From Thiobacillus sp. 0-1251 (GTDB lineage: Bacteria > Pseudomonadota > Gammaproteobacteria > Burkholderiales > Thiobacillaceae), in the NCBI GenBank assembly GCA_001899305.1, contig MKWL01000006.1, positions 1 to 41,990 of the forward strand: 41,990 nucleotides of DNA, read 5' to 3'. The notes under the pieces were generated by a model. It did no database searches and had not been told where the DNA came from. It was given only the letters and a program-made list of their open reading frames with translations. Both the position numbers and the translations under genes were made by a program. Below, piece after piece: positions 6,829 through 26,806 of the stretch (positions are counted from its first letter, which is position 1; every line of letters starts with the position of its first letter).

Positions 6829-6998
6829 TGATTCGGCCTCATCTTGTGCGGAGTAGCGGGAAAGTGTTTCATTGCAGATTAAGCGAAAATACATGAAAAT
6901 TTTACCTAGCGACGACGCTACCGTCCAATTGGCCAGGATTACAGCCCTTCATGCTCCGTGACTGGAACCCAATGGGCGAAACTGCTGAGGAGGGCACC

Positions 6999-7885: not shown

Positions 7886-8086
7886 ATGATCGAAGCCGGG
7901 CTGGACATCCTGACGCTGGCCGAGGTCGCCAGCTACCTGCGGGTAACGAAACGCACGTTATACCGGCTTGCCCAGGAAGGGACGTTGCCAGCGTTCAAGC
8001 TCGGCGGTACTTGGCGGTTTCGGCGCGATGAACTCAATCAGTGGATCACTGAGAACATCGGCAAACAACGGATCGGGGACCCATGA
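7886..8086 (+). CDS. Small excisionase/MerR-type helix-turn-helix protein
   Basis: The 66-residue protein is essentially one winged HTH: LTLAEVASYLRVTKRTLYRLAQEG followed by LPAFKLGGTWRFRRDELNQWI. This is the pattern of the excisionase-family DNA-binding domain (TIGR01764-like), found in small regulators and in recombination directionality factors. It starts 2 bases after the Usp stop and overlaps the next gene in ATGA. Given its place it could regulate the stress cargo or assist mobility. Neither can be decided from sequence. Confidence 0.8.
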   Translation: MIEAGLDILTLAEVASYLRVTKRTLYRLAQEGTLPAFKLGGTWRFRRDELNQWITENIGKQRIGDP

Positions 8087-8433
8087 AATCCTCACCCGAG
8101 GACACAACACACGGGCCACGCTGGATCAGTCGGCATCTACTGGCGGGTAGTGCCGTGCTGTTGTTGGTGATCGTTGTCAGTTGGCTGGCGAACGCCCCGA
8201 TTCGAAGTATCTTTCCGTATGCCTTCGCAGTCTGGTTGGTGACCTGGAAACATGGCATGACGGCCGGTTTCCTGTTTGCCGGATTGGCCACGCTCACCGC
8301 GCTGGTCACTGGCGCTTTCCCTAGCCGGGATGAACTCAGCGGGCAGGAAGTGGGGGAAGGTCTGTATACCTATCTGAAGCTGTCAGCTGTAGCGGCGGGC
8401 GTCGCACTAGGGAAGCGGGTTAGGCTCTCTTAG
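8083..8433 (+). CDS. Small membrane protein ending in the transposon repeat
   Basis: I do not recognise the family. The 116-residue frame begins with a polar leader (1-18), then about three hydrophobic segments: LLAGSAVLLLVIVVSWLA, IFPYAFAVWLVTWKHG with TAGFLFAGLATLTALVTGAF, and LKLSAVAAGVALG. The topology resembles the N-terminal membrane part of a sensor protein. Translation is coupled to the HTH gene (ATGA at 8083-8086). Its stop codon TAG (8431-8433) lies inside the 38-bp inverted repeat. The gene may therefore be a fragment cut off when the transposon end was formed, or one that adopted this stop. Confidence 0.6.
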   Translation: MKSSPEDTTHGPRWISRHLLAGSAVLLLVIVVSWLANAPIRSIFPYAFAVWLVTWKHGMTAGFLFAGLATLTALVTGAFPSRDELSGQEVGEGLYTYLKLSAVAAGVALGKRVRLS

Positions 8434-8466
8434 CGTGCTTTATTTTCCGTTTTCTGAAGCGACCCC
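8429..8466 (-). repeat. 38-bp terminal inverted repeat of a Tn3-family transposon
   Basis: On the minus strand it starts GGGGTCGCTTCAGAAAACGG and ends AAAGCACGCTAAG. This is the Tn21/Tn3-family terminal repeat pattern as I know it, including the near-invariant core and the TAAG end. GGGG at 8463-8466 is the outer edge, so the element lies to the left. The next five bases (8467-8471, ttgaa) should be one copy of the target-site duplication. Confidence 0.88.
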
Positions 8467-9162
8467 TTGAACCAGATTTTCCTGCACGCGGTTGAACGTG
8501 CTCCACAGGTCGGGCCGGTCGTCGTCCTGACGTCGAGGCCGCAGCAATTGTGTTTCCGTGATGGGCGCAGGCTTGACCGGGTCATCGTATTTCAGCGACA
8601 ACGCGGCGCGGGCAAATACCTCCGATTCGCCGTGATCCAGCGTGATGGCGCGCATACCTTCCTGACGTTCGCGCACCAGATCGAACCCATCCAGTACATC
8701 GTAGGCACCTTCGAGCACCTGGCCGATCACGTCGCCCTTGTGCGGGATGCGCAGGTCGGCCACGGTGTCGCCGCACACTAGCCCATTGCTGCACACGAAA
8801 CGGAACATTCCGGCCAGCATCTGATAGCTGCTGGTGCCATCGTGTGAATTCAGCAAAATGATTTCGTTGGCCTCTGCGCCGTTGATCTGCGCTGCGTGGC
8901 GCAACCGCAGCATGTGCTTGGTGTGTTCGCGCTTGCCGCTATCGCGCACACGCGTCTGGCATACCATGAATGGCTGGAAGCCTTCCTTGCGCAGGGCACC
9001 CAATACCTCGCCGGTCGGGATATAGGTATATCGGTCGGATCGGCTCTGGTGCTTCTCTTCCGCAAAGATGGAGGGAGCCACGCTGCGAATCTGATCATCC
9101 GATAACGGATGGTCGGCGCGCAAGAAGGGCGTAGCGTTGGCGAAACGGGAACTGAGTTGCAT
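8440..9162 (-). pseudogene. DUF932 protein, 3' end cut off by the Tn3-family insertion
   Basis: The 240-residue frame matches DUF932/plasmid-related proteins common on ICEs and plasmids: SHDGTSSYQMLAGMFRFVCSNGLVCG and a C-terminal RVQENLVQ. Native coding stops at Q232. The last eight residues GVASENGK and the TAA are read from the 38-bp transposon repeat. Intact relatives continue after QENL with about 30-40 more residues, so the C-terminus is missing. ATG 9162 has GGAG 8 bases upstream. The function of the family is unknown; some relatives are linked to DNA metabolism. Whether the truncated protein is still active is unknown. Confidence 0.85.
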
Positions 9163-10231: not shown

Positions 10232-10683
10232 GATCGTGCTCCAGTCCGAATCGGGCGGAATTGCCCGGAACCGGAGGAACACGCCGCAGCGCAGCAGTCA
10301 GGGGTCGCAGACGGCCGCATGGACGCAAGCGATCAACCGAAGGGCAGGGCGCGCAGCCCTTGACGGCGAGAACGGCGTGGTACGTTGAAGGGAACAGCAA
10401 GGCCGCTCCTCCCACACACTCCGCTACCCACATGGCAAGCGAAGCGCGCAGGCCCGAAGGGCCGGAGGCGTCAGGGATCAAAGCCGTATGGTCGCGCCTC
10501 GGCACGAGGCGGGGCAACGCGCGTGAGCCCGACGGCGGTATACCAAACGTTCATCTGAATTTGATGCTGTCGTCCGAAATAGAACTACAATTTTCGGACA
10601 AACGAAATGTGGTACGCATCCCTCAGGGGTGTCGACTTGTGCAGTCCCGGAATAAAACCTCCACATACAACCCAACTCATACG
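10232..10683. other. Spacer between radC and abiE
   Basis: About 450 bases without a supportable gene; the open frames here are short and low-complexity. One hyphenated palindrome, tccgaaa (10573-10579) and tttcgga (10592-10598), lies about 130 bases upstream of abiEi and could be a regulator site. Both the leftward radC promoter and upstream control of abiE should be here. Confidence 0.45.
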
Positions 10684-10720
10684 CAAAAACATTGGGTTTT
10701 TGTCGGTTTTTGCATATGAT
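10684..10720 (+). promoter_or_regulatory. abiE promoter with repeat-type operator
   Basis: TATGAT (10715-10720) is a good -10 box, with TTGGGT (10692-10697) as a weak -35 at 17-base spacing. The predicted start site is about 10727, the A of the abiEi ATG, so the message is probably leaderless. An inverted pair caaaaac (10684-10690)/gtttttg (10696-10702) and a further direct copy gtttttg (10706-10712) cover the promoter. AbiEi proteins are known to bind inverted repeats in their own promoter. Confidence 0.6.
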
Positions 10721-10726
10721 CAGGGA

Positions 10727-11545
10727 ATGGCTTCCCTTGACCAATTCGTTGATGACCGGCTTCTCCATGGTCGCGCGCACTTCGACCGCGAAGAAGCGCT
10801 GGCTGCTGTCGACCTGAAACCTGCGGGCCTGACCGCCGCGATCACGCGGCTGGTAAAAAAACAGCGGCTGGCCAACCCTCGCCACGGCTTCTATTTGATC
10901 CTGCGTCCTGAGGACCAGATGACCGGCGCTCCCGATCCCGTTCGCTGGATCGATCCCTTGATGAAGCACCAGGGCCTCGACTATCGCATCTCGCTGCTGC
11001 GAGCTGCGGCCTTCCACGGTTCATCGCACCAGGCCGCCATGGTCTTTCAGGTGGTTGTGCCCAAGCAGTTGCGAGATTTCGAGATCGGTCGCCACCGCCT
11101 CCAGTTTCTCTACCAGTCCCCCAAGGCCTTCGCAAAGCTCAATCAACCCGATCAGCTCGACCGGATGAAGAGTGATGCCGGCTTTGCCCAAGTGGCCGGC
11201 GTCGAGCTGACGTTGCTGGATTGCGCACGCTACTTCCACAAAGCCGCCGGCATCAATGGGGTTGCGCAGATCGCCAAGGACATTGGGGCCAAGGCCGAGC
11301 CGCGTACGCTCGCCAAAGCAGCCGCTGCCTATGAAAACTCGTCCGTGCGCCGACTGGGCTACCTGCTCGAACGGGCAGGGCACACGCGCCAAGCCAACGC
11401 ACTGGAACCCTTCGTCAAGAAGGCCAAGACGGCGGTGCTGCTGGATCCTGCCGTCAAGCCCCTCATTGAATCCCTCTCCGAGCTTCACGAGAAAAATGCC
11501 CGGTGGAAGCTCGTGATCAATGAGCCCGTGGAGATCGACTTTTGA
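10727..11545 (+). CDS. abiEi: AbiEi antitoxin of a type IV toxin-antitoxin system
   Basis: The 272-residue protein starts with a winged-helix DNA-binding region (FDREEALAAVDLKPAGLTAAITRLVKKQRLANPRHGFYLI). The conserved AbiEi body follows, with YRISLLRAAAFHGSSHQAAMVFQVV and VELTLLDCARYFHKAAGINGVAQI. AbiEi represses its own operon and opposes the AbiEii toxin without needing to bind it. ATG 10727 was chosen because a -10 box ends 7 bases before it and the conserved N-terminus starts here. Longer in-frame openings run into the promoter. The stop overlaps the toxin start (TTGA). Confidence 0.88.
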   Translation: MASLDQFVDDRLLHGRAHFDREEALAAVDLKPAGLTAAITRLVKKQRLANPRHGFYLILRPEDQMTGAPDPVRWIDPLMKHQGLDYRISLLRAAAFHGSSHQAAMVFQVVVPKQLRDFEIGRHRLQFLYQSPKAFAKLNQPDQLDRMKSDAGFAQVAGVELTLLDCARYFHKAAGINGVAQIAKDIGAKAEPRTLAKAAAAYENSSVRRLGYLLERAGHTRQANALEPFVKKAKTAVLLDPAVKPLIESLSELHEKNARWKLVINEPVEIDF

Positions 11546-12411
11546 TTCCGAGTTCCTACATCCAGGCCTGGAGCACGAAAGCCCCTTGGCCCGACGCGCG
11601 GCAGATCGAGCAGGATCTGATCATCAGCCGCGCGCTGTGCGACCTGTTCAACGCGCCGATGCTGAAGGGCAAGATTGCTTTTCGCGGTGGCACCGCGATC
11701 AACAAACTGTTGTTCAAGCAGCCTCTGCGCTATTCGGAAGATATCGATCTGGTGCAGACGCAGGCTGAGCCCATCGGCACGACAGTTGATGCGATCCGAG
11801 AAGCCCTGTCATGGCTCGGCAAGTGCAATCGCGAGCAGGCAGGTCATTCGATGCACCTGGTGTTCAAATTCACGCCCGAGGCTGATCTGCAGACGACGCT
11901 GAAGCTCAAGGTTGAGATCAATACCCGCGAGCATGAGCATCTGCTCGGTATCAAGTCGTATCCCTTCGCAGTGGAAAGCGACTGGTATCAGGGCGAGACC
12001 GAGATCGCGTCCTTTGAGCCCGAGGAGCTATTCGGCACCAAACTACGCGCATTACTGCAGCGGCGCAAGAACCGCGACCTCTTCGATCTGCATCACGGAC
12101 TCGATCAACTCGCCATGGATCGGGACAAGCTCATCGCCTGCTTCGACCACTACCTGGCACTTGAAGGCAAACCCATCACGCGCGCCGTCGCCGAGCAGCG
12201 CATGCTGGAAAAGCTCACACGCAGCCTGATCGAAGACATCGCGCCACTACTGCCGGCTGGCGTCCGCTTCAACGACGATGATGCGATACAGGCTTTCGAG
12301 CGCGTCTGGGAGGAACTCATCGTCCGCATCAAGGGCGATGCGTGGAAGCTGACCGGCCAAGCGCTCGAAGAACTGCGTGCAAAGAAATATCCCGGCCTAT
12401 TGAGCCGGTAA
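11542..12411 (+). CDS. abiEii: AbiEii nucleotidyltransferase toxin
   Basis: The 289-residue DUF1814-type nucleotidyltransferase has all four family motifs: GGTAINKLLF (motif I), YSEDIDLV with the catalytic acids (motif I/II), a central LKVEIN segment, and KLRALLQRRKNRDLFDL (motifs III-IV). AbiEii-type toxins inhibit growth and cause abortive phage infection; related MenT toxins add nucleotides to tRNA. The start is TTG 11542, overlapping the antitoxin stop by 4 bases. No ribosome site is needed if translation is coupled. The gene appears intact. Confidence 0.9.
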   Translation: MIPSSYIQAWSTKAPWPDARQIEQDLIISRALCDLFNAPMLKGKIAFRGGTAINKLLFKQPLRYSEDIDLVQTQAEPIGTTVDAIREALSWLGKCNREQAGHSMHLVFKFTPEADLQTTLKLKVEINTREHEHLLGIKSYPFAVESDWYQGETEIASFEPEELFGTKLRALLQRRKNRDLFDLHHGLDQLAMDRDKLIACFDHYLALEGKPITRAVAEQRMLEKLTRSLIEDIAPLLPAGVRFNDDDAIQAFERVWEELIVRIKGDAWKLTGQALEELRAKKYPGLLSR

Positions 12412-12576: not shown

Positions 12577-13251
12577 ATGAAAATTCTAATCGTCGAAGAC
12601 GAGCCCAAGACGGCGGCCTTCGTCCAGCGAGGCTTCGCCGAGGAAGGCTTTGTCGTCGATGTAGCCACGGACGGCGCGGACGGGCTGCATCTGGCGACGA
12701 CCGGAGACTATGACGCCATCGTGCTCGATGTCATGCTGCCGCAACGCGACGGCTGGTCGGTGCTGCAGGCGATCCGGGAACATCGCCCCGACCAGCCTGT
12801 GATCCTGCTCACGGCGCTCGATGCCGTTTCGCACCGGGTGAAGGGTCTGACCGCCGGCGCCGACGACTATCTGGTCAAGCCCTTCGCTTTTTCGGAGCTG
12901 CATGCACGGGTGCGCAATCTCCTGCGACGGACGCCGGTTCGGCGTGCGGAGGAGTTGAACTACGATGATCTCGAAATGGATCGCGCGCGGCATCGGGCGG
13001 CGAGGTCAGGGCAACCGATCGACCTCGCGCCCCAGGAGTACCGCCTGCTGGAATATCTCCTGCGCCATCCGGGCGAGGTCTTGACCCGCACGCGGCTTGC
13101 CGAGCAGGTGTGGGACATGAATTTCGACGGCGACAGCAATGTGGTCGATGTGGCCGTCCGGCGTTTGCGGCGCAAGGTGGATGATCCTTTCGAGCACAAG
13201 TTGATTCACACCATACGCGGTGTCGGGTATGTGCTCGAAAGGCGGGACTGA
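12577..13251 (+). CDS. OmpR-family response regulator (heavy-metal type)
   Basis: The 224-residue regulator has a receiver domain with acidic pocket E8-D9, phospho-acceptor D51 (VLDVMLPQRDG), the conserved T near 80 (ILLTALD) and K near 102 (YLVKPF). A winged-helix output domain follows (DLAPQEYRLLEYLLRHPGEVLTRTRL and the C-terminal IHTIRGVGYVLERRD). The sequence is closest in style to CopR/CusR/IrlR regulators. It overlaps or abuts the kinase gene. A likely target is the metal-efflux operon at 19358, which has three 11-bp repeats upstream typical of OmpR-family binding. Confidence 0.9.
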   Translation: MKILIVEDEPKTAAFVQRGFAEEGFVVDVATDGADGLHLATTGDYDAIVLDVMLPQRDGWSVLQAIREHRPDQPVILLTALDAVSHRVKGLTAGADDYLVKPFAFSELHARVRNLLRRTPVRRAEELNYDDLEMDRARHRAARSGQPIDLAPQEYRLLEYLLRHPGEVLTRTRLAEQVWDMNFDGDSNVVDVAVRRLRRKVDDPFEHKLIHTIRGVGYVLERRD

Positions 13252-14710
13252 GGCCGTGGCGGCGACAGAGGCTCGGAGCGTAGGCAAATCGGCATCGATC
13301 GCCACCCGGCTCACGCTTTGGTACGCGCTGCTCAGTATCGTGCTGATCGCTGCCGCGGGCGGCGTCATGTACTGGGTGTTGGCGGATCGCCTGCGCCAGG
13401 AAGACGACCAGTTGCTCGCCGGCCGGATTGCCGAGCTGCGGGCCATCCTGCTGCTGCACCCGACCGGCTCCGTCGAATTCAGGGAGGAAGTCCAACGCGA
13501 AGCGGCGATGTTGCCGGGCATCCAGGTCCAGGTGCTGGATTCGCAGGGGAAGATGGTCATTGAAGCCCCGGCCTCCCCGGCGGCGGTGTTCCAGCGCCGC
13601 AGTGCCGAGCGGTATCCACAAGGCGCGGAAGAGGCCCCCGGAAAGGAGTGGCTCGCCGCCGATGGTGGCGTCTATCTCGTCAAGTCGGCCCAGGTCTCGG
13701 TCGGCAGCGGCTACGCCGTGAAGGTAGCGATGAGCCGTTCCAAGGAAGAAGACCTGCTCGCCGCTTACCGGCGAATCCTGTGGTTGGCTATCTCTGCCGC
13801 TCTGGTCCTGGCTGTCGCCGCCGGCTACCTGATTGCCCGGCGCGAGATGCGGCCCGTCACCAGATTGGCGGCGATCATCGCCGACCTGGGCGCGGCGCAG
13901 CTCCATCGCCGGGTCAGCGACGACGCCTGGCCGAGGGAACTGAAACCGCTCGCCACTAACTTCGATCAACTGCTGGCGCGGCTGGAGGAATCCTTCGCGC
14001 GAATGTCCCAGTTCTCGGCCGATATCGCGCACGAATTGCGCACTCCGCTGCACATCCTACAAGGCGAAGCCGAACTGGCGTTGACCAAGGCGAGTTCAAA
14101 TGAGGCGTACCGGGCCTGCATCGAATCCGCCGCGGAGGAATATCAGCGCCTGACGCGGATGGTGGATGCGCTGCTGTTCCTCGCCCGCGCCGAACAGCCG
14201 GATGCCCAGTTGGACAGGAAGCCGTTGCAACTCGAACAGGAGGTCGCCGCCGTCTGCGATTTCTACCAAGCCATGGCGGACGAGCAGGCGGTGGCCCTGG
14301 TCGCTCGCGGCAAGGGAGAGGTCGTGGCGGATGGCGGCCTGTTGCGCCGGGCACTGGGCAACCTCATCGCCAATGCGCTGCGCCATACGCCCAGCGGGGG
14401 GCAAATCGTCGTCGAGGCGAGGCAGACAGCGGATGGTGCGGCCGAGATTGCGGTCAGTGACAGCGGAGAAGGCATCGCGGCGGATGACCTGCCCCATGTG
14501 TTCGACCGCTTCTACCGTGCCGATGGCGCCCGTTCGCGGCAGGGCGCCGGCACGGGCCTGGGCCTGGCCATCGTCAAGTTCATCATGCAGTTGCATGGCG
14601 GAACGGTGTCGATCCAAAGCGAGCTTCATCGTGGCACGACCATCACCTTGGCCTTCCCGGCGGCGACCATTCTTGGGGCGCCGCGGAACACGGAAAAAAT
14701 CATACGCTAA
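13229..14710 (+). CDS. Heavy-metal-type sensor histidine kinase
   Basis: The 493-residue inner-membrane kinase has TM1 (LTLWYALLSIVLIAAAGGVMYWVL), a periplasmic sensor region of about 130 residues, TM2 (ILWLAISAALVLAVAAGYLIA) and a HAMP domain. HisKA follows with His268 in FSADIAHELRTPL, then HATPase motifs GNLIANALRHTP, DSGEGI, FDRFYRADGARS and GTGLGLAIV. It pairs with the preceding response regulator, as CusS/CopS kinases do. The start is uncertain: ATG 13229 is used here, but GTG 13220 or GTG 13256 (just past the regulator stop) are possible. It converges with the MFS gene. Confidence 0.9.
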   Translation: MCSKGGTEAVAATEARSVGKSASIATRLTLWYALLSIVLIAAAGGVMYWVLADRLRQEDDQLLAGRIAELRAILLLHPTGSVEFREEVQREAAMLPGIQVQVLDSQGKMVIEAPASPAAVFQRRSAERYPQGAEEAPGKEWLAADGGVYLVKSAQVSVGSGYAVKVAMSRSKEEDLLAAYRRILWLAISAALVLAVAAGYLIARREMRPVTRLAAIIADLGAAQLHRRVSDDAWPRELKPLATNFDQLLARLEESFARMSQFSADIAHELRTPLHILQGEAELALTKASSNEAYRACIESAAEEYQRLTRMVDALLFLARAEQPDAQLDRKPLQLEQEVAAVCDFYQAMADEQAVALVARGKGEVVADGGLLRRALGNLIANALRHTPSGGQIVVEARQTADGAAEIAVSDSGEGIAADDLPHVFDRFYRADGARSRQGAGTGLGLAIVKFIMQLHGGTVSIQSELHRGTTITLAFPAATILGAPRNTEKIIR

Positions 14711-14789: not shown

Positions 14790-16049
14790 TCAGTCGCCCC
14801 GGCTGCGCAGCAGGGCCAAGGTGCCCAAGGCCATCAGCGCCGCTGCCAAGCCAAAACCGGCCGTCGGGGAAACCGATGTCCACACCACACCGACCGTCGC
14901 GCTGGAGACGAACTTGGCCGCGCCGTTCACCGTGCCGAGCGCGCCGTAGCTCATGGCCAGCGTCTCCGCCCGAACCATCTCGGCCGTGACGGTGGGCTCC
15001 AGCGCTTCCTGAACGGTGACATACAAGCCGGCAACGAAGAAGACGCCCGCCAGCAGCGGCACGCTGTCGACGCCCAGCCAGAACGCGAGCGCGGTCAGTG
15101 CGGCGGTGAGCGCGCCCAGCACGTAGCCCGCGACCAGCACCGGCAGGTGGCCGATCCGATCCGCCACCGCGCCCACCGGGTAGGACATGGCGACCTGCAC
15201 AACATTGCGCCACACGTAGAGCAGACCCGCCACCTGTGCCGCCCGGATCACCCCCATCGAAGGCGTCAGCATGGTCGTGGCGGCGAGAATAAGCAAGCTG
15301 TGGGAGAAGTCGCCGATACCGAACAGACCGACCGCGCCGAGGTAGCGCTTGAAGCGCGCCGGCAAGCCGCGCAGCGAGCCGAAGAATTTCAGGGCCGGGT
15401 TCGGCGAATGCTGCGGGTCCTGAACCAGCGTCAGGAAGGCCAGCACCGCCAGCGCGCCCGGAATCACGGACCACCACAAGACCAACCGGAACGGCCCGGC
15501 TTCACCATTCCAGTGCAAGCCCTGCGCCCAACCCAGCAAAGCCACGCCCAGCAGCGGGCCGGCGACGGCGCCGATGGTGTCGGCGGCGCGGTGAAAGCCG
15601 AAGGCGCGGCCGCGTGTTTCGGGCGACACCGCCTGGATCACGATGGCATCGCGCAGCGGACCACGCAGCCCCTTGCCGAACCACGAAACAATGCGGCCGA
15701 GCAACAACAAGGGCCAGCCGGCCGCCAATGCAATCAGTGCCTGTCCGACCGGGGTCAGGCCGTAGCCGACCAGTACCAGCAGCTTGCGGTGGCCGAGCTT
15801 GTCGGCGATGTAGCCCGAGACCATCTTGGTGAAGGCGGCCACCGCATCGGCGACGCCCTCGATGAGACCCAGCGCGGCCGCCGGGATGCCGAGCACGGCC
15901 AGAAAGCCGGGCAGGATGACGGTGGTCGTCTCGTAGCAGAAGTCGCCCAGGGCGCTGGTGACCCCCGCGCCGGTGACGGTGCGGTTGAGCCATCCTTTCG
16001 GTGGTGTCCCTGTTGTGGCTGCCAATGCGGCTTCGTTGCGTTCAGTCAT
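14790..16049 (-). CDS. MFS transporter, last gene of the fluoride operon
   Basis: The 419-residue protein has about 12 membrane segments and the MFS motif A variant GYIADKLGHRKLLVLVGYGLTP between TM2 and TM3. GKGLRGPLRDAIVIQAVSPETRGRAFGFHRAADT is the conserved middle. The substrate is not evident. ATG 16049 has AAGGA 8 bases upstream. It lies 96 bases after the UspA gene in the same direction, so it may still be in the riboswitch-controlled operon, though the gap could hold its own promoter. No terminator was seen before it. Confidence 0.85.
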   Translation of the reverse strand: MTERNEAALAATTGTPPKGWLNRTVTGAGVTSALGDFCYETTTVILPGFLAVLGIPAAALGLIEGVADAVAAFTKMVSGYIADKLGHRKLLVLVGYGLTPVGQALIALAAGWPLLLLGRIVSWFGKGLRGPLRDAIVIQAVSPETRGRAFGFHRAADTIGAVAGPLLGVALLGWAQGLHWNGEAGPFRLVLWWSVIPGALAVLAFLTLVQDPQHSPNPALKFFGSLRGLPARFKRYLGAVGLFGIGDFSHSLLILAATTMLTPSMGVIRAAQVAGLLYVWRNVVQVAMSYPVGAVADRIGHLPVLVAGYVLGALTAALTALAFWLGVDSVPLLAGVFFVAGLYVTVQEALEPTVTAEMVRAETLAMSYGALGTVNGAAKFVSSATVGVVWTSVSPTAGFGLAAALMALGTLALLRSRGD

Positions 16050-16145
16050 TTACTGATTCCTTCTTGGCGACGGTTTCGCCGGTGCGCTTGCCTCCCCAGC
16101 TTGGCTGAGATCAGCCGAAAGCAGGCCGGACAAATCTGCTGGGCT

Positions 16146-16565
16146 TCAAGCACGCGGACGCACCACCGTCACCGCGCAGGGCGCATAGGCGATGACCTGG
16201 CGCGCCACCGAGCCGATCAGCCAGCGCTCGAACAGGCCGTGGCCGCGATGGCCGACGACGATGTGGTCGATGCCGTGCTCTTCCGCGTAGAGCACGATGG
16301 TCTCCGCGGGGTGCCCCACCTTCACCTCGAAATGCGAGCTCAGCTTGTCGGCACGAGCCTTCAACGGTTGCAGGATGCGGGCATGGTGGCGGCGCGATTG
16401 TTCCAGCACCGCCTCGGTTTCAACTTCCTCGCCAAACTCGGGCGGGCGGGCTACTGCGAGCACGTGAAGTTCCGCGCCGTACTTGACGGCGAGATCGAGA
16501 GCGAAATCGAAGGCGGCCTTGGACGATTCCGAACCGTCGAAGGCGATAAGCAGTTTATTGATCAT
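16146..16565 (-). CDS. Single-domain universal stress protein
   Basis: The 139-residue UspA-type protein begins MINKLLIAFDGSESS and ends with the ATP-binding signature GHRGHGLFERWLIGS (G-2x-G-9x-GS intact), followed by CAVTVVRP. Its ATG overlaps the antiporter stop by 4 bases and has GGAG 7 bases upstream, so it is coupled to that gene. Usp genes are known members of some fluoride-riboswitch operons. A sensory or regulatory link to the antiporter is inferred from coupling only. Confidence 0.9.
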   Translation of the reverse strand: MINKLLIAFDGSESSKAAFDFALDLAVKYGAELHVLAVARPPEFGEEVETEAVLEQSRRHHARILQPLKARADKLSSHFEVKVGHPAETIVLYAEEHGIDHIVVGHRGHGLFERWLIGSVARQVIAYAPCAVTVVRPRA

Positions 16566-17734
16566 GTCTGGTCTCCAGAAGCACGGGATGGCAACAGATG
16601 GTGCGGGAGGAAGAAGGCGTTGGCGATCAGCGTCGGCACCACGGCGCTGCCGACCACCGCTGCCACGATGGCCGAATACTCGGCCTGGTTGATGACCCCG
16701 TGGGACAGGCCAAACAGGGCCGAGATGGTGCCGAAGGTAAGGCCGGTGGACATCAGCAGCGTGGTGTACATGGCCTCCTGCTTCGGCGACTTGTACAACA
16801 GTGTCGCCGGATACACGCCCGCCAGCTTGGCCCCCATCTTGGTCAGCAGCAGGACCACGAAGCCCAGCGGCGCGGCGGCCAGCGCCGGCAGCGACACCAG
16901 CAAGCCGGCGCGGATGAAGTAGAACGGCGTCAGGAAGCCCAGGGTCAGGGTGCGCAGCCGCCGCACCAGGGCGTGGTCCTTGCCCACCGTGCCGGCCAGC
17001 ACCATGCCCACCAGGTAGGCAGGCAACACCGCCTCGCTGCCGGCCCAGCCGGCGAGCGCGCCCAAGCCGAACAGGCAGAGCATCAGGAACTTCGCCTCCA
17101 GTTCCGAGGGCCGGTTGCCATAGCGCTTGAAGAAACGCGGTACCACCCGGGGCAGGATGAAAGCGGCGGCGACGATCCCGGCCACGAATACCAGGGTCTT
17201 CCAGGTGAATGGCGAGAACAGCAGGCCCAGCGCGATCACGGTCGCGAGGTCGTTGACGAAGCAGGCGGCCAGCACGCCTTTGCCGTAGTCGGTGGTGTTG
17301 AGGCCGAACTCCAGCATCACCGCATAGACCACCGCCACCGAGGTGGTGGACATGGCGACGCCCGCCAGCCAGCTCTGCTGGATGCCCCAGCCGAGCAGCC
17401 AGTGGGCCGCTGCCGCGCAGATCAGAAAGGGCGCGATAAAGCCGACCAGACCAATGCCCAGGGTCGGTTTCCACTGGCGCTTGAACACCGCCGGGTCCAG
17501 TTCCGCGCCGGCCAGGAAGGTGAGCAGGATGGCCCCGGCCCCGGACAGGAACTTGATCCACGTGGCATCGCCCGCCAGCAGCGCTCCGCCAAGGGCGGCG
17601 CCGATGACGAGTTGGGCCACGGTACCCACTATGATTTCCGACAGCGCGGTGGCAACGCGCATCCAGATCGACAGCATCGTGGCCACCAGGGCCAGCCCCA
17701 GCCACAGCGCCGCCTGTGCCCAGATTGCGGTCAT
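16562..17734 (-). CDS. CPA2-family cation:proton antiporter
   Basis: The 390-residue protein has about 12 membrane segments and CPA2 sequence features: AGAILLTFLAGAELDP, WLAGVAMSTTSVAVVYAVMLEFGLN, and FVNDLATVIALGLLF with an Asp in the position of the ion-coupling acid. It lacks the TrkA-N domain of the Kef protein at 1431. ATG 17734 has AGGAG 6 bases upstream, overlapping the DUF190 stop. Such antiporters occur with fluoride riboswitches and may restore pH after HF entry. The ion (Na+ or K+) cannot be read from sequence. Confidence 0.88.
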   Translation of the reverse strand: MTAIWAQAALWLGLALVATMLSIWMRVATALSEIIVGTVAQLVIGAALGGALLAGDATWIKFLSGAGAILLTFLAGAELDPAVFKRQWKPTLGIGLVGFIAPFLICAAAAHWLLGWGIQQSWLAGVAMSTTSVAVVYAVMLEFGLNTTDYGKGVLAACFVNDLATVIALGLLFSPFTWKTLVFVAGIVAAAFILPRVVPRFFKRYGNRPSELEAKFLMLCLFGLGALAGWAGSEAVLPAYLVGMVLAGTVGKDHALVRRLRTLTLGFLTPFYFIRAGLLVSLPALAAAPLGFVVLLLTKMGAKLAGVYPATLLYKSPKQEAMYTTLLMSTGLTFGTISALFGLSHGVINQAEYSAIVAAVVGSAVVPTLIANAFFLPHHLLPSRASGDQT

Positions 17735-17743
17735 GGCGCGCTC

Positions 17744-18088
17744 CTAGCTGTTTTCCGGCGGATCGCCGGATTCGGGGTTCACCACGCCGAAGCGGGCCGG
17801 GATGTGGGCGTAGAAGGCGCGCAGCTTTTCCTTATGTAGCAGGTCCAGCAACTTTGCCGACTCCGCTTCGGTGACGACGAACTCCACCTCCACCGCGAGA
17901 TTGCCGGCCAGTTCGAAGAAATGATCCTCCATCAGATGATGGTGATGACCGAAACCGGCCATGGCGCGAAACGCCGTGCCGCCCCGGATGCCCAAGCTGT
18001 TGGCCGCATCGAGCAGCCATTCCCAAGCCAGCTTGCCGTGGCAGCGCTGATTCTCGTGCAGGTAAAACCTCAGAAAACAGCCTTCCAT
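17744..18088 (-). CDS. DUF190 protein, PII-like
   Basis: The 114-residue protein belongs to DUF190, a family with a ferredoxin-like, PII-related fold often placed beside crcB. Its characteristic parts are LRFYLHENQRCHGKLAWEWLLDAANSLGIRGGTAFRAMAGFG and the C-terminal half VEFVVTEAESAKLLDLL. The start 18088 (MEGCFLRF) follows AAGGGG 5 bases upstream and is preferred over 18103. It lies between the HIT gene (12 bases) and the antiporter (9 bases). A role as a small-molecule-responsive regulator of the channel or antiporter is plausible but unproven. Confidence 0.85.
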   Translation of the reverse strand: MEGCFLRFYLHENQRCHGKLAWEWLLDAANSLGIRGGTAFRAMAGFGHHHHLMEDHFFELAGNLAVEVEFVVTEAESAKLLDLLHKEKLRAFYAHIPARFGVVNPESGDPPENS

Positions 18089-18099
18089 TTCGACCCCTT

Positions 18100-18468
18100 T
18101 CAATAATTCTGTTTGGATGGAATCACGCCCCGTACGCCGCCGCGTGGGTTGGCCACGTCGCCCCGGTAGCGGGGGATGAGATGCAGATGGACGTGAAAGA
18201 TGGTTTGTCCCGCCATGTCGCCGACGTTGATGCCCAGGTTATAGCCGTCGGGATGAAACTCGGCGTCGAGCCATGCCTTGGCGGCGTCGGCCAGTTCGAA
18301 CATCGCCTGCCGCTCCTGCGCCGAGGTATCGAACCAGCCAGCCACGTGGCGACGGGGCAGGACGAGCAGATGGCCGGGACTGACCGGAGATTGGTCGCGG
18401 ATCACATAGGCCAGATCGTTCTCCAGCAGAACCTCCGCCGGCTGGCAGAACGGGCAAGCGGCGTTCAT
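18100..18468 (-). CDS. HIT-family hydrolase
   Basis: The 122-residue protein has an N-terminal zinc-type CPFC motif, [13 protein letters not shown], and the catalytic triad HVHLHLIPR near residue 100. HIT enzymes hydrolyse or transfer nucleotides from substrates such as dinucleoside polyphosphates or AMP-lysine. ATG 18468 overlaps the crcB stop (18465-18467) by 4 bases. The presence of a HIT enzyme in a fluoride operon is notable. One possibility is handling of fluoro-nucleotide or stalled adenylate products, but this is speculation. Confidence 0.88.
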
Positions 18469-18851
18469 GCCGCGCCTCTTGCCCAGGCCACGGTGGCGAT
18501 GCCGGCCAGGGTCATCAGCACCGAGCCGATCACGTGCGTCGCCACCGAGGCCAGCGCCCAGGATGGCCGTCCCTGTTGCAGCAGGGTGGCGATTTCGGCA
18601 GAGAAGGTGGAGAACGTCGTCAGCCCGCCGCAGAAGCCGGTCACGACGAGGAGCCGCCATTCAGGCGCGAGGCCAGGCAAGGCGGAGAAGAAAGCGAGTC
18701 CCAGGCCGATGACGTAGCCGCCGATCAGGTTGGCGGCCAGCGTGCCGGGAGGAACGGTGGGGAAGAGTGCGTTGAGCTTGAGGCCCAGCTGCCAGCGCAG
18801 CACGGCGCCGAACGCGGCGCCGAGGGCAATGGCGAAGACGGATTTCCACAT
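18465..18851 (-). CDS. crcB: CrcB/Fluc fluoride channel
   Basis: The 128-residue protein has four membrane segments and CrcB hallmarks: [25 protein letters not shown] with the conserved Asn, and [15 protein letters not shown], the phenylalanine-box region with the central sodium-site segment. Fluc channels are dual-topology dimers that export fluoride from the cytoplasm. It is the first gene of the leftward operon and lies directly downstream of a fluoride riboswitch. AAGGA is 7 bases before the ATG and can be hidden in a hairpin (18856-18889). Confidence 0.95.
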
Positions 18852-18855
18852 GCGT

Positions 18856-18889
18856 CTGTCCTTGAAAAGCGATCATTTTTCACGGACAG
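18856..18889 (-). promoter_or_regulatory. Hairpin covering the crcB ribosome-binding site
   Basis: CTGTCC (18856-18861) pairs with GGACAG (18884-18889), and inside it ttgaaaa pairs with tttttca, giving a long interrupted stem around a small loop. The minus-strand Shine-Dalgarno AAGGA (18859-18863) lies in the stem. It could let the upstream riboswitch act on translation of crcB. Confidence 0.5.
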
Positions 18890-18893
18890 CCAA

Positions 18894-18976
18894 ATGCCTA
18901 CACCGCCCGTGCCGGGTTCGTGTAGGCATCATCAGCCGGTTATCCCGGCGGTTATGAGGAGGCATGCCATCTCCTG
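18894..18976 (-). ncRNA. Fluoride riboswitch (crcB motif) with switching hairpin
   Basis: Read leftward, P1 is GGAG (18971-18974) with CUCC (18958-18961). P2 is GCCGG (18945-18949) with CCGGC (18935-18939). The conserved CUGAUG follows, and the pseudoknot strand GGCAU (18964-18968) pairs with AUGCC (18925-18929). These are the defining parts of the fluoride aptamer. The stretch 18921-18929 can instead pair with 18894-18902 in a 9-bp hairpin that takes up the pseudoknot strand, so ligand and hairpin exclude each other. The T-run after the hairpin is short (2-3), so control may be by weak termination or through the next hairpin. Confidence 0.93.
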
Positions 18977-19240
18977 TACGGGCACATTCTCCCATGCATC
19001 CGGGTGAACTGGAAAGTCTCTGTAGGGTGCTGTGTGTAGAACGGGCGTTCGATAGCGTAGGGGTGAATGTCTCTTGAGGGATGCATTTGCCGAAGGGCAA
19101 AGCAGGCATCCAACGGCTCCTTGCCGTCGTACTCTGGGGGTTAGCAAGACGTCCGGGTCTCCGGCGGCCGCGCTCCGATGCGTGACGCGGCAACAGAGGC
19201 GCTCGGACGAAGCTGTTTTGTGACGTCGAAAGATGACCAA
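18977..19240. other. Divergent spacer between crcB riboswitch and pump operon
   Basis: About 260 bases with no supportable gene. It must hold the leftward promoter of the fluoride operon. A short hairpin tttgcc/ggcaaa near 19086-19101 and other small inverted repeats are present, but I could not match them to a known RNA class. Confidence 0.4.
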
Positions 19241-19273
19241 ACGGTCAGGTTCCGGTCACGTTCCGGTTTCCCC
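19241..19273 (+). promoter_or_regulatory. Three 11-bp tandem repeats, probable OmpR-family operator
   Basis: acggtcaggtt (19241-19251), ccggtcacgtt (19252-19262) and ccggtttcccc (19263-19273) repeat with a period of exactly 11 bases; the first two agree at 9 of 11 positions. Tandem direct repeats at one helical turn are typical of OmpR/PhoB-family response regulators. They lie about 85 bases upstream of the efflux operon, whose likely controller is the regulator at 12577. Confidence 0.55.
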
Positions 19274-19357
19274 GCGTCGCTTACTCTTCTGCCGTCCGAG
19301 CCGTCGCTCTATGCGGTATCGGCTCATTCCGTATGTCTATCCGCGAAGAATGGGAAG

Positions 19358-20767
19358 ATGAAGCGCTTACCGATCACGCTCCTGGTGCTCCTCACCGGCT
19401 GCGCCAGCTATACCGCTAAACCGCTCGATCCCGGCGGACAGCAGACGGCCCTCGAAGCCCGGCGCCTGGATGCCCCGCAGGTTCGGCAATTTGTCGAGCG
19501 CAGTCTGGGGCATGAACTCGCACCCTGGCCGCCGAAAGCCTGGGATCTCGACGCGCTGACCCTGGCGGCCTATTCCTTCCATCCCGACCTGGACCGTGCC
19601 CAAGCCCAGCAACTGGTGGCCGAAGCCGCCATCGTCACGGCAGGCGCACGCCCGAATCCGACGGCCGGGGTCTCGTTTCAACGCAACATGGATGCACCGG
19701 CGGGGCAGTCGCCATGGACCAACGGCCTGGGCCTCGATATCCCGATCGAGACGGCCGGCAAGCGCGACTACCGCATCGACCAGGCACGTTATCTTGCCCA
19801 AGCCGCAAAGCTCAGGGAAGCCGAGGCCGTGTGGCAGGTGCGCAGCCGCGTGCGGGCCAGTCTCCTGGCGGCCTATCCGACCGAGGCCCTGGTGCGCCGG
19901 CAACGCGATCTGCAGGAAGGGATCGCCCGGATGCTGGAACGCCGGTTTGCCGCAGGCTTCGCGTCCCAGCCCGAACTGACACAGGCGCGCCTCACCCTCG
20001 ATCGGTCCATCCTGGCCCTGCGCGAAAACCAGAAACAGGGCGCCGAAAACCTCGCCCGGCTCGCCGCGGCCGTGGGCGTTCCCGCAGCCGCTCTCCAAGG
20101 GGTCGAGATTTCCTACGATACGTTCGAGCAGCTGCCGCCCGTCTCGGCCTTGCCGCCGGCGGAAGTGCGGCGCGCGGCCCTGCTGAGCCGGCCCGACGTG
20201 CTGGCCGCCCTCGCCGACTACGAGGCCAGCCAATCCGCGCTGCAACTGGAAATCGCCAGGCAGTATCCGGACGTCGCGCTCGGCCCCGGCTACGTTTGGG
20301 ACGCCGGCCAGGTGAAATGGTCGCTCGGTCTCTCCCTCGTGCTGCCGTTGCTCAACCGCAACGAAGGCCCCATCGCCGAGGCCAAGGCACGCCGCGAGCA
20401 GGCCGCCGCGGCCTTCCTGGCCGTCCAGGCCAAGGCAATCGCCGAAGTCGACGAGGCCCTGGCCGGCTACGGCCATGCGGTGCAGATGGTCGAAACGGCC
20501 GAAGCCCTGCTGCGCGGTCAGCAGAAAACCGAGCGCGCAGTCGCCGCGGCCTTCCGAGCGGGCGAGTCCGACCGTCTGGCCTGGCTCTCGGCGCAGTACG
20601 AAACCGCGACGGCCGAACTGGCCCGGGTCAATGCCTTGTCTCAAGCCCAGCAGACGCTGGGACGCCTGGAGGACGCGCTGCGCCGGCCGATCGGCCCCCA
20701 TGCGCTGGCCGTGACGGCGGACCAGGTCATTTCGTCGAAACCCCGTCCCTACGAGGAACAACCATGA
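19358..20767 (+). CDS. Outer-membrane efflux lipoprotein (TolC/CusC/CzcC type)
   Basis: The 469-residue protein begins MKRLPITLLVLLTGCAS, a lipoprotein signal with lipobox LTGC. Two TolC-type repeats follow: an N-terminal half from AYSFHPDLDRAQAQQLVAEA, and a second half with LLSRPDVLAALADYEASQSALQLEIARQYPDVALGPGYVWDAG. It forms the outer-membrane duct of the RND pump encoded next. ATG 19358 was chosen for the signal peptide; longer in-frame openings lack one. The ribosome site (GGGAAG) is weak. Its stop overlaps the adaptor start in ATGA. Confidence 0.88.
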   Translation: MKRLPITLLVLLTGCASYTAKPLDPGGQQTALEARRLDAPQVRQFVERSLGHELAPWPPKAWDLDALTLAAYSFHPDLDRAQAQQLVAEAAIVTAGARPNPTAGVSFQRNMDAPAGQSPWTNGLGLDIPIETAGKRDYRIDQARYLAQAAKLREAEAVWQVRSRVRASLLAAYPTEALVRRQRDLQEGIARMLERRFAAGFASQPELTQARLTLDRSILALRENQKQGAENLARLAAAVGVPAAALQGVEISYDTFEQLPPVSALPPAEVRRAALLSRPDVLAALADYEASQSALQLEIARQYPDVALGPGYVWDAGQVKWSLGLSLVLPLLNRNEGPIAEAKARREQAAAAFLAVQAKAIAEVDEALAGYGHAVQMVETAEALLRGQQKTERAVAAAFRAGESDRLAWLSAQYETATAELARVNALSQAQQTLGRLEDALRRPIGPHALAVTADQVISSKPRPYEEQP

Positions 20768-21803
20768 GAAAAAAACCATTCATCGTGATCGGTATCGGCG
20801 CGCTGGTGGCCGGCCTGGCTGTCTGGGGATTTCTGGCGGGGCGCGAGGAACTCGCTATCGAACAGAAGCGTGAGAAACCCGTCAACGCGCCGTCCCGCGT
20901 CGTCGCCCAGGACGGCGGCACGGCGCTGGTCTTCGATGCGGACACCCAGAAGCGGGCCGACATCGCCGTGGCCGCCGTGCAGCAGACCGCCCGCCGCGGA
21001 GAGATCGCGGCGCTGGCCGCGGTGCTGCCGCTCCAGGAACTCATCGATCTGCGCAACGCCTTTGTCGCCGCCACCGCCCAGTTGGAGCGGACCCGGGCAG
21101 CGATGGAGGCGTCGCGCCGCGAATTTGAGCGGATCGAGGCGCTGCACAACGATGACAGCAACGTCTCGGACAAGGTGTTGGAGGCCGCGCGAGCCACATG
21201 GCGTGGCGACGAGGCGGTAGCACGCGCGGCCGCCGAGGCGTTGGGCACCGTCGAGCGCGGCGCCCGGCAAAAATGGGGGGCTGCGTTGGTTGAGGCGATG
21301 GCAAAAGACACGCCGCTGTTCCGGGATTTGGCGGAACAACGGCAAGTGTTGCTGCGGGTCGCGGTGTCGGCGGGTAGCAGCCTGGCGAAGCCGCCCGTCA
21401 CCGTGAGGGTCGACGCTGGCGATGGCGCCTATCGAACCGGCAAGCTGATTTCCGCCGCGCCCCAGGCCGACCCGCGCACCCAGGGGCCGACTTTCTTCTA
21501 CGCCGCCTCGACAAACGGGCTGCTGCCGGGCACCACGCTCACCGCCAACCTGCCAGCGGGCGCCGAACAGCCGGGCGGCATCGTGCCGGCCGACGCCGTG
21601 GTGTGGTGGCAGGGCAAGTCCTGGGTGTATCTGCAAAGCGCGCCTGACCGTTTCGTGCGGCGCGAGTTGCCGCCGGCGATGGCCATCGACCAGGGCTGGT
21701 TCGTGCCGGGTGGGTTCCAGGGCGCGCGCCTGGTGGTGCGCGGCGCCCAGAGCCTGCTCTCGGAAGAGTTGCGCGCGCAGATTCAGGTCGGCGAGGAAGG
21801 CGA

Positions 21804-21807
<4 letters not shown>
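20764..21807 (+). CDS. Periplasmic adaptor of an HME-RND pump
   Basis: The 347-residue protein has a single N-terminal membrane anchor (PFIVIGIGALVAGLAVWGFLAG), a helical-hairpin segment (about 85-150) and C-terminal beta-barrel and membrane-proximal parts (VPADAVVWWQGKSWVYLQ). It is a short HlyD/CzcB-type adaptor joining the inner-membrane pump to the outer-membrane duct. Start and stop overlap its neighbours by 4 bases each, so the three genes are translated as a unit. No metal-binding His-rich region was seen at the N-terminus. Confidence 0.85.
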
Positions 21808-24920
<3,113 letters not shown>

Positions 24921-25185: not shown

Positions 25186-26412
25186 TCAGCCAAGCCGGCG
25201 GGGCGTTGCTGTCCCGCAATGCTTAGCCCAGTCGTCCATCAATTTCCGACGTTTATCGAAAAGGTCACCGCGGCGGTAGGCGGCTTCCACTTTGTTGCCG
25301 ATGGTGTGAGCCAGGGCCATTTCCACCACTTCTGACGGGTAGGCTGTTTGCTCGGCTGCCCAGTCCCGGAATGATGAGCGGTAGCCGTGGACAGTCAGGT
25401 CGCCTCGGCCCATACGCTTTAATACAGCGATCAGGCTCATGTCGGACAGGGCTTTGTTATTCATGCCGGGAAACACAAGATCGGTGTCGACTCCCCGTGG
25501 GAGGGCTTTGAGAATTTTCAGGGCTTTGTTGGAAAGGGGGACACGGTGTTCCTTACCGGCTTTCATACGATCACCTGAGATGATCCAGGCGCTAGCTTGT
25601 AGATCAATTTCGGCCCATGTGGCCCCGCGTACTTCACCCGAACGGGCAGCGCACAGGATGGTGAATTCCAATGCTCTGGCACTGATGCCTTCCATCTTTG
25701 CCAACTCGGCCATGAAGCTCCCCACCTCACCGTAAGGCAGGGCGGTATGGTGTGCCACCTTCTGGATTTTAGAGGGTTGAGCCAGTAGAGTGTCCAGGTG
25801 ACCTTTCCAACGTGCCGGATTTTCACCTTGCCGATAACCGCGCACCGTCGCCCAGGACAGGACATTCTCAATGCGCCCGCGCAAACGGCTGGCGGTTTCT
25901 GTTTTTGTTTTCCAGATTGGCTCCAGAACTTTAAGCACCAGCCCTGTGTCCACACTTGCGACGTTCAAGGCGCCGATGATTGAAGTTGCGTAGGTATCCA
26001 GCGTGTTTGCCCACTGCTGGCGATGCTTGGCATTTTTCCAGCTGTCGCTATGAGCATCCAGGTAAGCTGTCACGCATTGCGAGAAGGTCATTGCCTTGGC
26101 GCGTTCTGCTGCCAGAGCGGAACGTTTGGCGCGGCGGACCTCTATCGGATCAAGCCCATGATCTACCTGTTCACGAATATGGCGCGCCTTCTCTCTAGCA
26201 CCTGCCAGAGTGACATCCGGAAAACCACCCAGACCCATATCCCGTCGTTTACCCGCAATCACCTTGCGGAGTATCCAGGAGCGTGCACCTGTACCGGATA
26301 CCTGAAGGGCCAAGCCAGCGACCCCACCGACGAAGTACAAACCCGCTTTAGTCAGCCGATTAACTTCCAAGGCGGATAATTCCTTTGCTTTTTTACCCAT
26401 CATAATACCCAT
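25186..26412 (-). CDS. P4-type tyrosine integrase (DUF4102 family)
   Basis: The 408-residue protein has the DUF4102 N-terminal arm-binding region (KELSALEVNRLTKAGLYFVGGVAGLALQVS), a core-binding middle, and a catalytic domain. The domain shows R in CAARSGEVRGATW, the HGYRSSFRDWA box (H-x-x-R) and LAHTIGNKVEAAYRRGD with the nucleophilic Tyr. It would integrate an island at a tRNA or similar site. Such genes usually have their 5' end nearest the attachment site, which would put it in 26413-26806. The start is uncertain among ATG 26412, 26403 and 26400. It may mark a nested island. Confidence 0.9.
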   Translation of the reverse strand: MGIMMGKKAKELSALEVNRLTKAGLYFVGGVAGLALQVSGTGARSWILRKVIAGKRRDMGLGGFPDVTLAGAREKARHIREQVDHGLDPIEVRRAKRSALAAERAKAMTFSQCVTAYLDAHSDSWKNAKHRQQWANTLDTYATSIIGALNVASVDTGLVLKVLEPIWKTKTETASRLRGRIENVLSWATVRGYRQGENPARWKGHLDTLLAQPSKIQKVAHHTALPYGEVGSFMAELAKMEGISARALEFTILCAARSGEVRGATWAEIDLQASAWIISGDRMKAGKEHRVPLSNKALKILKALPRGVDTDLVFPGMNNKALSDMSLIAVLKRMGRGDLTVHGYRSSFRDWAAEQTAYPSEVVEMALAHTIGNKVEAAYRRGDLFDKRRKLMDDWAKHCGTATPRRLG

Positions 26413-26806
26413 CAATTGGAGTAAGATTTGATGATAGTTCGTGAGGCGAAATGAAACAACAATTTTGACTAAATACGAATAAATACAGCTTACTACAATG
26501 ACTTATGAGATTTGTTTAGACGGCATGAAACATGGCGGAGGCAGACACCCTCTCCGCCAATTACCGTCCAGTCGCTTTAGGCGCTTGAATTTACTGGAAG
26601 TCTTGTAAATGAACGGACGGCATCAACGCGGCAGCTACTTCGGCATATTGCCCGGATTCGGCCAGCCGACGTAAAAACAACATTCCCGATATTGCCAAAA
26701 GCGCAAACCTGTGTAGGTGACGCACGCGAGAACTCGATACCGATTCGAATACTCGCGTCGTGCTGGCCCGCTCTCGACAGTTGATGTAGCCGGCAAGATG
26801 GGCGAG
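26413..26806. other. Spacer upstream of the integrase, possible attachment region
   Basis: About 390 bases with no supportable gene. It is A/T-richer next to the integrase start. An inverted repeat ggcgga/tccgcc flanks cagacaccctc around 26533-26558. The integrase promoter should be here and an att site is likely, but I saw no tRNA or tmRNA end. Confidence 0.4.

Follow-up and report, generated by a model that had tools for sequence, protein, structure and literature searches.

Why should an operon headed by a fluoride riboswitch carry a gene for a nucleotide hydrolase of the histidine triad (HIT) family? This question is raised by a stretch of 41,990 nucleotides (nt) of Thiobacillus sp. 0-1251 (contig MKWL01000006.1, positions 1 to 41,990; the window hereafter), in which a fluoride riboswitch aptamer is followed by crcB and by genes coding for a HIT-family hydrolase, a DUF190 protein, a CPA2-like antiporter, a universal stress protein (Usp), and a transporter of the MFS family. 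With high confidence, this six-gene set can be regarded as a fluoride-resistance operon, and its HIT protein is very probably a functional member of it, HIT genes recurring behind fluoride riboswitches and those most similar to the one of the window being found there in a genome sample of its order. A further reading, according to which the operon is induced by fluoride and the HIT protein is a metal-independent nucleotide hydrolase replacing Nudix and ApaH enzymes, which depend on Mg and are blocked by fluoride, is evenly balanced between acceptance and doubt. The features of the operon are the following.

18916..18983, minus strand: fluoride riboswitch aptamer RF01734 (cmscan, full model)
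18894..18929, minus strand: anti-aptamer hairpin ATGCCTACAC...GTGTAGGCAT (10 of 10 pairs)
18856..18889, minus strand: second leader hairpin CTGTCC...GGACAG (leader fold)
18465..18851, minus strand: crcB, Fluc-type fluoride channel of 128 amino acids (PF02537, NF010792)
18100..18468, minus strand: HIT-family hydrolase of 122 amino acids (PF01230; 92.9 bits, cut-off 21.5)
17744..18088, minus strand: DUF190 protein with a predicted PII-like fold (PF02641; 68.3 bits)
16562..17734, minus strand: CPA2-like cation:proton antiporter, membrane domain only (PF00999; 126.2 bits)
16146..16565, minus strand: Usp (PF00582; 125.3 bits)
14790..16049, minus strand: MFS transporter (PF07690; 97.8 bits)

Recurrence of HIT genes behind fluoride riboswitches

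Riboswitch loci were surveyed in genome samples of the class (274 genomes), the order (150), the genus (56), and the phylum (398). In total, 98 loci of 83 genomes were mapped, namely the window and 18, 34, 4, and 41 loci from the class, order, genus, and phylum samples, respectively. Only matches above the cut-off were mapped; the phylum yielded 64 such RF01734 matches, 48 of which, owing to overlap of the samples, are among the mapped loci and 16 outside them. The gene counts per locus are lower bounds, as several mapped loci stop at contig ends, and searches over 40 genomes made use of stricter Infernal filters, by which weak riboswitches may be missed. Within 6.5 kb of the 98 loci and on the same strand, profile matches were obtained for crcB (50 loci), DUF190 (32), the antiporter (20), Usp (20), MFS (10), and HIT (10). 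Given these frequencies, the core of crcB, DUF190, antiporter, and Usp is ordinary; indeed, fluoride operons headed by a riboswitch and containing crcB, Usp, and an antiporter are of a known kind. A preliminary description of this DNA had held HIT and MFS members to be unusual in such operons and had proposed a search of riboswitch-linked gene sets. This search returned each of them at 10 of the 98 loci, so that both are uncommon, as had been fairly stated, but recur.

At the ten HIT loci, the gene lies at most 1 kb downstream of the riboswitch on the same strand. These loci carry six family codes (f1, f202, f207, f208, f218, and f220), all belonging to one order. The possibility that HIT was a chance neighbour in a single genome was rejected in view of this recurrence. 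HIT is flanked by crcB and DUF190 in the window and in G322, G352, G363, G439, G456, G462, and G466 (G, L, and C numbers designate genomes, sequence stretches, and contigs of this study), G456 being a sister genome with the same genus code as the genome of the window. In G303, no crcB was found; the first gene recognised behind the riboswitch is HIT, followed by DUF190, the antiporter, Usp, and an enolase gene. In G353, HIT is situated about 640 nt downstream of a riboswitch of its own. One more HIT operon, with an aptamer word match, was encountered in a named genome outside the 98 loci (L025).

The gene immediately after HIT is DUF190 in nine of the ten HIT operons. The predicted model of the DUF190 protein (predicted local distance difference test score, pLDDT, 80) has as best matches 2dcl and 1o51 (TM0021, 'putative PII-like'), followed by CPII and SbtB, so that the PII-like character proposed in the preliminary description holds at the level of the predicted fold. 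The recurrent order of both genes might reflect a nucleotide signal pair, in which HIT sets the level of adenosine monophosphate (AMP) or diadenosine tetraphosphate (Ap4A) and DUF190 senses it and gates CrcB or the antiporter. The matching CPII and SbtB entries, which contain AMP, ADP, or ATP and include the SbtB-transporter complex 7egk, would agree with such a role of the modelled fold. However, DUF190 is present at 32 of the 98 riboswitch loci and HIT at only 10, which indicates that DUF190 works without HIT. Moreover, residues 44-62 of the model, where the PII-like loop is expected, are poorly predicted. A signal pair is very improbable.

Similarity to the HIT of the window goes together with riboswitch linkage in the order sample, where HITs were found at 25 places (E ≤ 1e-25) among 150 genomes. 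Those with 60-100% identity to the HIT of the window (G000, G322, G352, G353, G363, and G303) are riboswitch-linked in six out of six cases; among the remaining 19 (46-58% identity), 18 are unlinked and one, in G353, is ambiguous. The latter is located upstream of an enolase gene, near the end of a contig with four riboswitch matches, and misses some conserved residues as judged by eye. When it is counted as unlinked, identity and linkage are associated with a Fisher p of 5.6e-6, with the 60% line drawn post hoc and relatedness uncorrected. The class sample (274 genomes) contains nine further HITs (E ≤ 1e-40; 52-59% identity), none of them in a genome with a riboswitch match. The HIT paralogue of the source genome (G000, contig C11; 51% identity) is found beside a gene coding for a DegT-type aminotransferase. 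On plasmids, 152 records match, and an HNH endonuclease gene adjoins HIT in the two that were examined. HIT as a general housekeeping copy was rejected, the surroundings of these HITs being different from those in the operon. No Rfam match at gathering level was obtained in 98.5 kb covering ten HIT loci for which no riboswitch link is known.

In the literature searched, no paper joining 'fluoride riboswitch' and 'histidine triad' was retrieved, an earlier mention of HIT or MFS in the tables of the 2012 Science paper being possible, and wider searches did not bring up HIT as a recurring member of fluoride operons among the matches listed. Likewise, no paper joining fluoride, crcB, riboswitch, operon, and enolase with MFS was retrieved. 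Among known systems, a fluoride operon of six genes in Enterobacter cloacae FRM resembles that of the window in that a fluoride riboswitch heads a multigene unit including crcB and uspA. According to the excerpted text of its description (PMC5533749), it is located on a genomic island and contains copies of enzymes hit by fluoride, which were reported to be important; its genes named there include ppaC, eno, gpmA, and orf5249, and no HIT, DUF190, antiporter, or MFS gene, the word antiporter appearing twice in the full paper. It further differs from the operon of the window, which has no enolase gene, whereas that of the sister genome G456 has one.

Predicted structure and possible role of the HIT protein

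The motif H92-x-H94-x-H96 is intact in the HIT of the window and invariant in 16 aligned members. The predicted model of this protein (mean pLDDT 84; poorly predicted from roughly residue 108 onwards) fits bacterial HITs, most Fhit chains, and an Ap4A phosphorylase with root-mean-square deviations of mostly 1.2-2.0 Å over about 90-108 columns. Most Fhit chains gave 1.3-1.7 Å, and three Fhit/NitFhit chains 2.9-6.9 Å. For Hint of Escherichia coli, the deviation was about 3-4 Å; the sequence E-values for Fhit and Hint are of similar order, and the HinT models of NCBIfam match below their cut-off. The structural matches include 7p8p, described as 'Fhit covalently bound to a nucleotide'. From Fhit and the bacterial HIT hydrolases, whose motif and, by prediction, fold it shares, the protein differs by its length of 122 amino acids and a C-terminal end of its own; among the 50 matches listed, solved relatives are at most 37% identical to it.

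The release of fluoride by the CrcB family is established, and HIT enzymes act via a nucleotidyl-histidine. Against this background, the operon may function as follows. Without fluoride, the leader would favour the anti-aptamer hairpin and expression would be low. Binding of fluoride would stabilise the aptamer and free the leader, probably resulting in more expression of crcB and the genes downstream. CrcB would then release fluoride from the cell, and the other genes would handle its intracellular effects, DUF190, the antiporter, and Usp forming a widespread accessory core. Fluoride blocks Mg-dependent phosphoryl enzymes and, together with Mg2+, would block those of the Nudix and ApaH types. 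As HIT enzymes do not need a metal cluster like theirs, the protein would be a natural substitute, a Fhit-like, metal-independent enzyme that may keep splitting dinucleoside polyphosphates or related AMP adducts. Its role would parallel that of enolase, a fluoride-sensitive enzyme carried by two other HIT operons, and that of the enzyme copies in E. cloacae FRM, and the MFS protein would be a swappable transporter that fluoride operons repeatedly recruit.

Excerpts of three papers are relevant to the step assigned to HIT. In crystals of RppH, fluoride occupies the position of the attacking water (PMC7144940). A dependence on metal is described for the bacterial enzymes of the Nudix and ApaH types (PMC10148737). 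Asymmetric Ap4A hydrolases comprise two families, HIT and Nudix, and S. pombe employs HIT instead of Nudix (PMC7705103). An ApaH match was present in all ten HIT-operon genomes, in nine of them above the cut-off. In the HIT operons of G456 and G303, the last gene codes for enolase (a second copy in the former, the sole copy found in the assembly in the latter), and G353 has a second enolase gene on its riboswitch contig. None of the six genes in the window was recognised by Pfam as enolase or pyrophosphatase, and the source genome gave one enolase match, on a contig other than that of the operon. An Ap4A-type substitution by HIT can be put forward tentatively. It is likewise conceivable, without being probable, that the distinct HIT clade represents a dedicated fluoride-tolerance enzyme, providing a metal-free bypass against the build-up of dinucleoside polyphosphates or AMP adducts.

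Alternatively, HIT may remove an adduct that fluoride itself makes, for instance a nucleotidyl fluoride (adenosine 5'-phosphorofluoridate being one) arising from fluoride attack on an activated adenylate, yielding AMP and fluoride for export by CrcB. Fhit-type enzymes cleave adenosine 5'-phosphorofluoridate. According to excerpts of PMC7072326, other unusual adenylates split by Fhit enzymes are adenosine 5'-phosphosulfate and the phosphoramidate, and the position of HIT directly after crcB, with a 4-nt overlap, would suit a hydrolysis coupled to export. However, formation of the adduct at useful levels in the cell is conjectural, and G303 retains HIT with no crcB found beside it. Removal of such an adduct is unlikely to be the function of HIT.

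Riboswitch leader and operon structure

The fluoride aptamer recognised before crcB in the preliminary description was borne out by a match of 54.1 bits to RF01734 in an Rfam cmscan of the window (gathering threshold 34, E-value 2.2e-12, model positions 1-64). It extends to 18983, slightly beyond the position given before (18976). No other Rfam match was present in the window, nor a second copy of RF01734 in the genome of 3.66 Mb. The aptamer belongs to the RNA family described as the crcB motif (Weinberg 2010; PMC2864571). Excerpts of that paper mention K+ or Cl- transport genes as partners and terminators overlapping the motif; HIT, DUF190, and MFS are not named as partners in them.

The sequence ATGCCTACAC is at the same time the 3' strand of the aptamer and the 5' arm of an alternative hairpin, the partner of which, GTGTAGGCAT, lies 16 nt downstream. 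Both structures should therefore be mutually exclusive. The leader has a minimum free energy of -54.3 kcal/mol with the anti-aptamer hairpin, and of -41.4 kcal/mol if the arm is barred from pairing. In nine of the ten HIT operons, at least 9 of the 10 pairs can form, and 8 of 10 in G353; in G439 and G466 the arms show paired changes, for example from CCTAC/GTAGG to CCTGC/GCAGG. Across all readable loci, 43 of 85 reach at least 9 of 10 pairs, a figure that is uninformative overall, as single-base shuffles equal the observed pairing in 32% on average. In the leader of G352, the anti-aptamer hairpin is followed by a T-run, resembling an intrinsic terminator. The second leader hairpin contains the GGA of the probable Shine-Dalgarno sequence of crcB, and its outer six pairs are identical in the sister leaders L150, L151, L140, and L152.

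All six genes were above the curated cut-offs of Pfam (CRCB, HIT, DUF190, Na_H_Exchanger, Usp, and MFS_1). CrcB scored 97.5 bits with PF02537 (cut-off 32.9) and 179.8 bits with the equivalog model NF010792 (cut-off 125). The genes crcB and HIT overlap by 4 nt (ATGA), HIT and DUF190 are separated by 11 nt, DUF190 and the antiporter gene by 9 nt, and the antiporter and Usp genes overlap by 4 nt. The start of DUF190 was taken at ATG 18088, which follows AAAGGGG; TTG 18103 is only the mechanical start of the open reading frame. Usp and MFS are 96 nt apart, which is the sole open junction. The gene order proposed before was confirmed, and the tight packing applies to four junctions, with overlaps of 4 nt or gaps of 9-11 nt, and not to the last one. 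Judged from the sequence, the spacing of the six genes fits a single operon. No terminator-like sites were found between the operon genes; two weak ones lie within the MFS gene, against a chance expectation of 2.8.

A different arrangement would be that only crcB, and HIT through its overlap, respond to fluoride, with the remaining genes under an internal promoter as a general set against envelope or pH stress. A promoter-like match on the right strand, at 17655-17628 (minus strand) within the antiporter gene, would allow this, as would the 96-nt gap before MFS. Yet the match is one against 0.4 expected, and elsewhere antiporter and Usp genes are found directly behind a riboswitch without crcB (units 5, 6, 22, and 38; L226 and L227). 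Separate control of the rear genes is improbable compared with one fluoride-responsive unit.

The antiporter

The antiporter, taken for a CPA2 member in the preliminary description, matches PF00999 and scores 111.2 bits with TIGR00932, below the curated cut-off of 238.3. Since the former model was matched and the latter cut-off missed, the protein is designated CPA2-like rather than CPA2. Pfam found no TrkA_N domain in it. The pH repair after entry of HF that had been proposed as part of an integrated response would be a putative role of this protein.

Other antiporter genes show some variation. In the sister operon of G439 (L140, 9120-9767), the antiporter is reduced to a fragment of 219 nt, and in that of G462 (L151, 6863-7430) there is no antiporter match and Usp is shortened; the boundaries of both losses are different. 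In the sister operon of L150, a gene for a prenyltransferase/toroid-like protein (7981-8916, plus strand) is inserted between antiporter and Usp. A plasmid of Enterobacter ludwigii (L226, 5762-10911) carries a fluoride riboswitch and codes for an antiporter 74% identical to that of the window, for Usp, and, by annotation, twice for MutS. The window itself contains, outside the operon, a second antiporter with a TrkA_N domain (1431-3158, plus strand) and a double Usp (6951-7883, plus strand).

The MFS transporter

The MFS protein, which had been described as the sixth member of the operon, is a real one of a kind that recurs in such sets, but the copy of the window is a diverged replacement. 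It is 79-85% identical to the MFS proteins of L123, L228, and L242, and only 33-34% to those of four sister operons, and the DNA homology between window and sister operons ends at the stop codon of Usp. Hence, the MFS gene of the window has been replaced, being a xenologue of that of the sister operons. For the same reason, it was rejected as an old, fixed member, and it is the least secure part of the integrated response that had been proposed for the six genes.

At least three clades of MFS proteins occur in fluoride operons, with a mutual identity of 30-41%, and a fourth is present on a Caulobacter plasmid, in a unit consisting of riboswitch, antiporter, Usp, and MFS. The clade of the window comprises L123, L242, and L228 of Marinobacter (77-85% identity). 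The second one is made up of four sister operons, G363, and G134 (64-95%), and the third one of G321, G364, and G784 (61-86%). The subfamily of the window was found in G000, G296, and G417 out of the 150 genomes of the order and in G709 out of the 398 of the phylum. In G417, it belongs to a crcB-DUF190-MFS unit; in G296, other open reading frames separate Usp from MFS; and in G709 (73% identity) no crcB, DUF190, antiporter, or Usp match was found in the 4.2 kb searched. In view of G709 and G296, a strictly fluoride-bound subfamily was rejected. A comparable crcB-DUF190-MFS unit on plasmid pSMR5 of Marinobacter salarius shares the fluoride riboswitch, crcB, DUF190, and MFS (83-85% identical) with the operon of the window, from which it differs in that no HIT, antiporter, or Usp was found in that stretch. 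The closest plasmid relatives of the MFS (88% identity) include the one beside mcr-5 on a plasmid of Cupriavidus gilardii (L229, 5341-6576). This similarity suggests that the transporter beside mcr-5 originated in a context of resistance to fluoride or metals.

Genomic surroundings and other fluoride loci

The operon is flanked on one side by divergent efflux genes, which include an RND pump (19178-24920), and on the other by a convergent heavy-metal two-component system (12577-14710). A phage-type integrase (25186-26415, minus strand) and a sub-threshold match to a family of integrating conjugative elements (TIGR03747; 41092-41817, minus strand) were seen in the window, so that the region may be a genomic island; no tRNA genes were found in the window. 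An AbiEi/AbiEii toxin-antitoxin pair is located at 10607-12411 (plus strand).

Could HIT and MFS be passengers, that is, mobile genes for stress or resistance that were captured by an island and have persisted by chance? The integrase, the AbiE pair, the heavy-metal efflux and sensor genes, and the match to the conjugative element would provide the setting, the MFS was swapped into the window and resembles the one beside mcr-5, and similar HITs without fluoride links exist. On the other hand, the HITs with at least 60% identity are riboswitch-linked at all six places in the order sample and keep their motif residues, and diverged MFS clades follow fluoride riboswitches in genomes of the Thiobacillus type, on plasmids of Marinobacter and Caulobacter, and in other places. 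A passenger status is unlikely, compared with the functional membership of HIT favoured here.

Other fluoride loci displayed further genes. On contig C44 of G353 (L111 and L245), two pairs of divergent riboswitches, two HIT genes, and an open enolase frame form a fluoride island; a dynamin-like GTPase, a phosphoglycerate-mutase-like gene, and a Nudix gene were recognised on it by eye. A dynamin-family GTPase occurs beside fluoride riboswitch genes in G352 (L135, 1-632, minus strand; Pfam) as well as in G353 (L245, 589-2253, plus strand; by eye). A small HEAT-repeat protein with cysteine pairs (Pfam HEAT_2) is encoded in fluoride operons of two families (L111, 277-702, minus strand; L121, 9758-10231, minus strand).

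Appraisal and significance

Several points weigh against a fluoride-induced operon in which HIT replaces the metal-dependent nucleotide hydrolases. HIT is absent from the mapped riboswitch loci of the class and phylum samples (0 of 59), and five of the ten HIT operons belong to one genus. Were Ap4A control the common weak point, HIT should occur more widely. The metal independence of the HIT protein of the window is presumed from the family at large. A HIT from a Thiogranum genome (L028), 66% identical to that of the window, lies in a stretch of 12 kb without any fluoride gene or riboswitch. Together with L044/L049 and L045/L046, which have no riboswitch link either, it falls among the operon HITs in a tree of 49 rows, indicating that the operon clade is not exclusive. 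On this tree, three changes of the operon label are required, and a single origin is possible; independent recruitment of HIT is not supported for this reason. Regarding induction, the leader of the window has no T-run after the anti-aptamer hairpin, unlike that of G352, and the second leader hairpin is folded in both computed states of the leader, which bears on the mode of switching. Finally, the MFS gene of the window was swapped in and hence may be transcribed separately.

The contents of fluoride operons may be regarded as an inventory of fluoride targets, with export channels on the one hand and copies of enolase and pyrophosphatase for the blocked enzymes on the other. The likeness of the MFS protein suggests an origin for the transporter gene beside mcr-5. 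The recurring HIT points to nucleotide metabolism, possibly to alarmones of the Ap4A type, as a further fluoride target, for which this small soluble enzyme offers a means of testing. If true, a dedicated HIT bypass would place the control of alarmones among the targets of fluoride poisoning.

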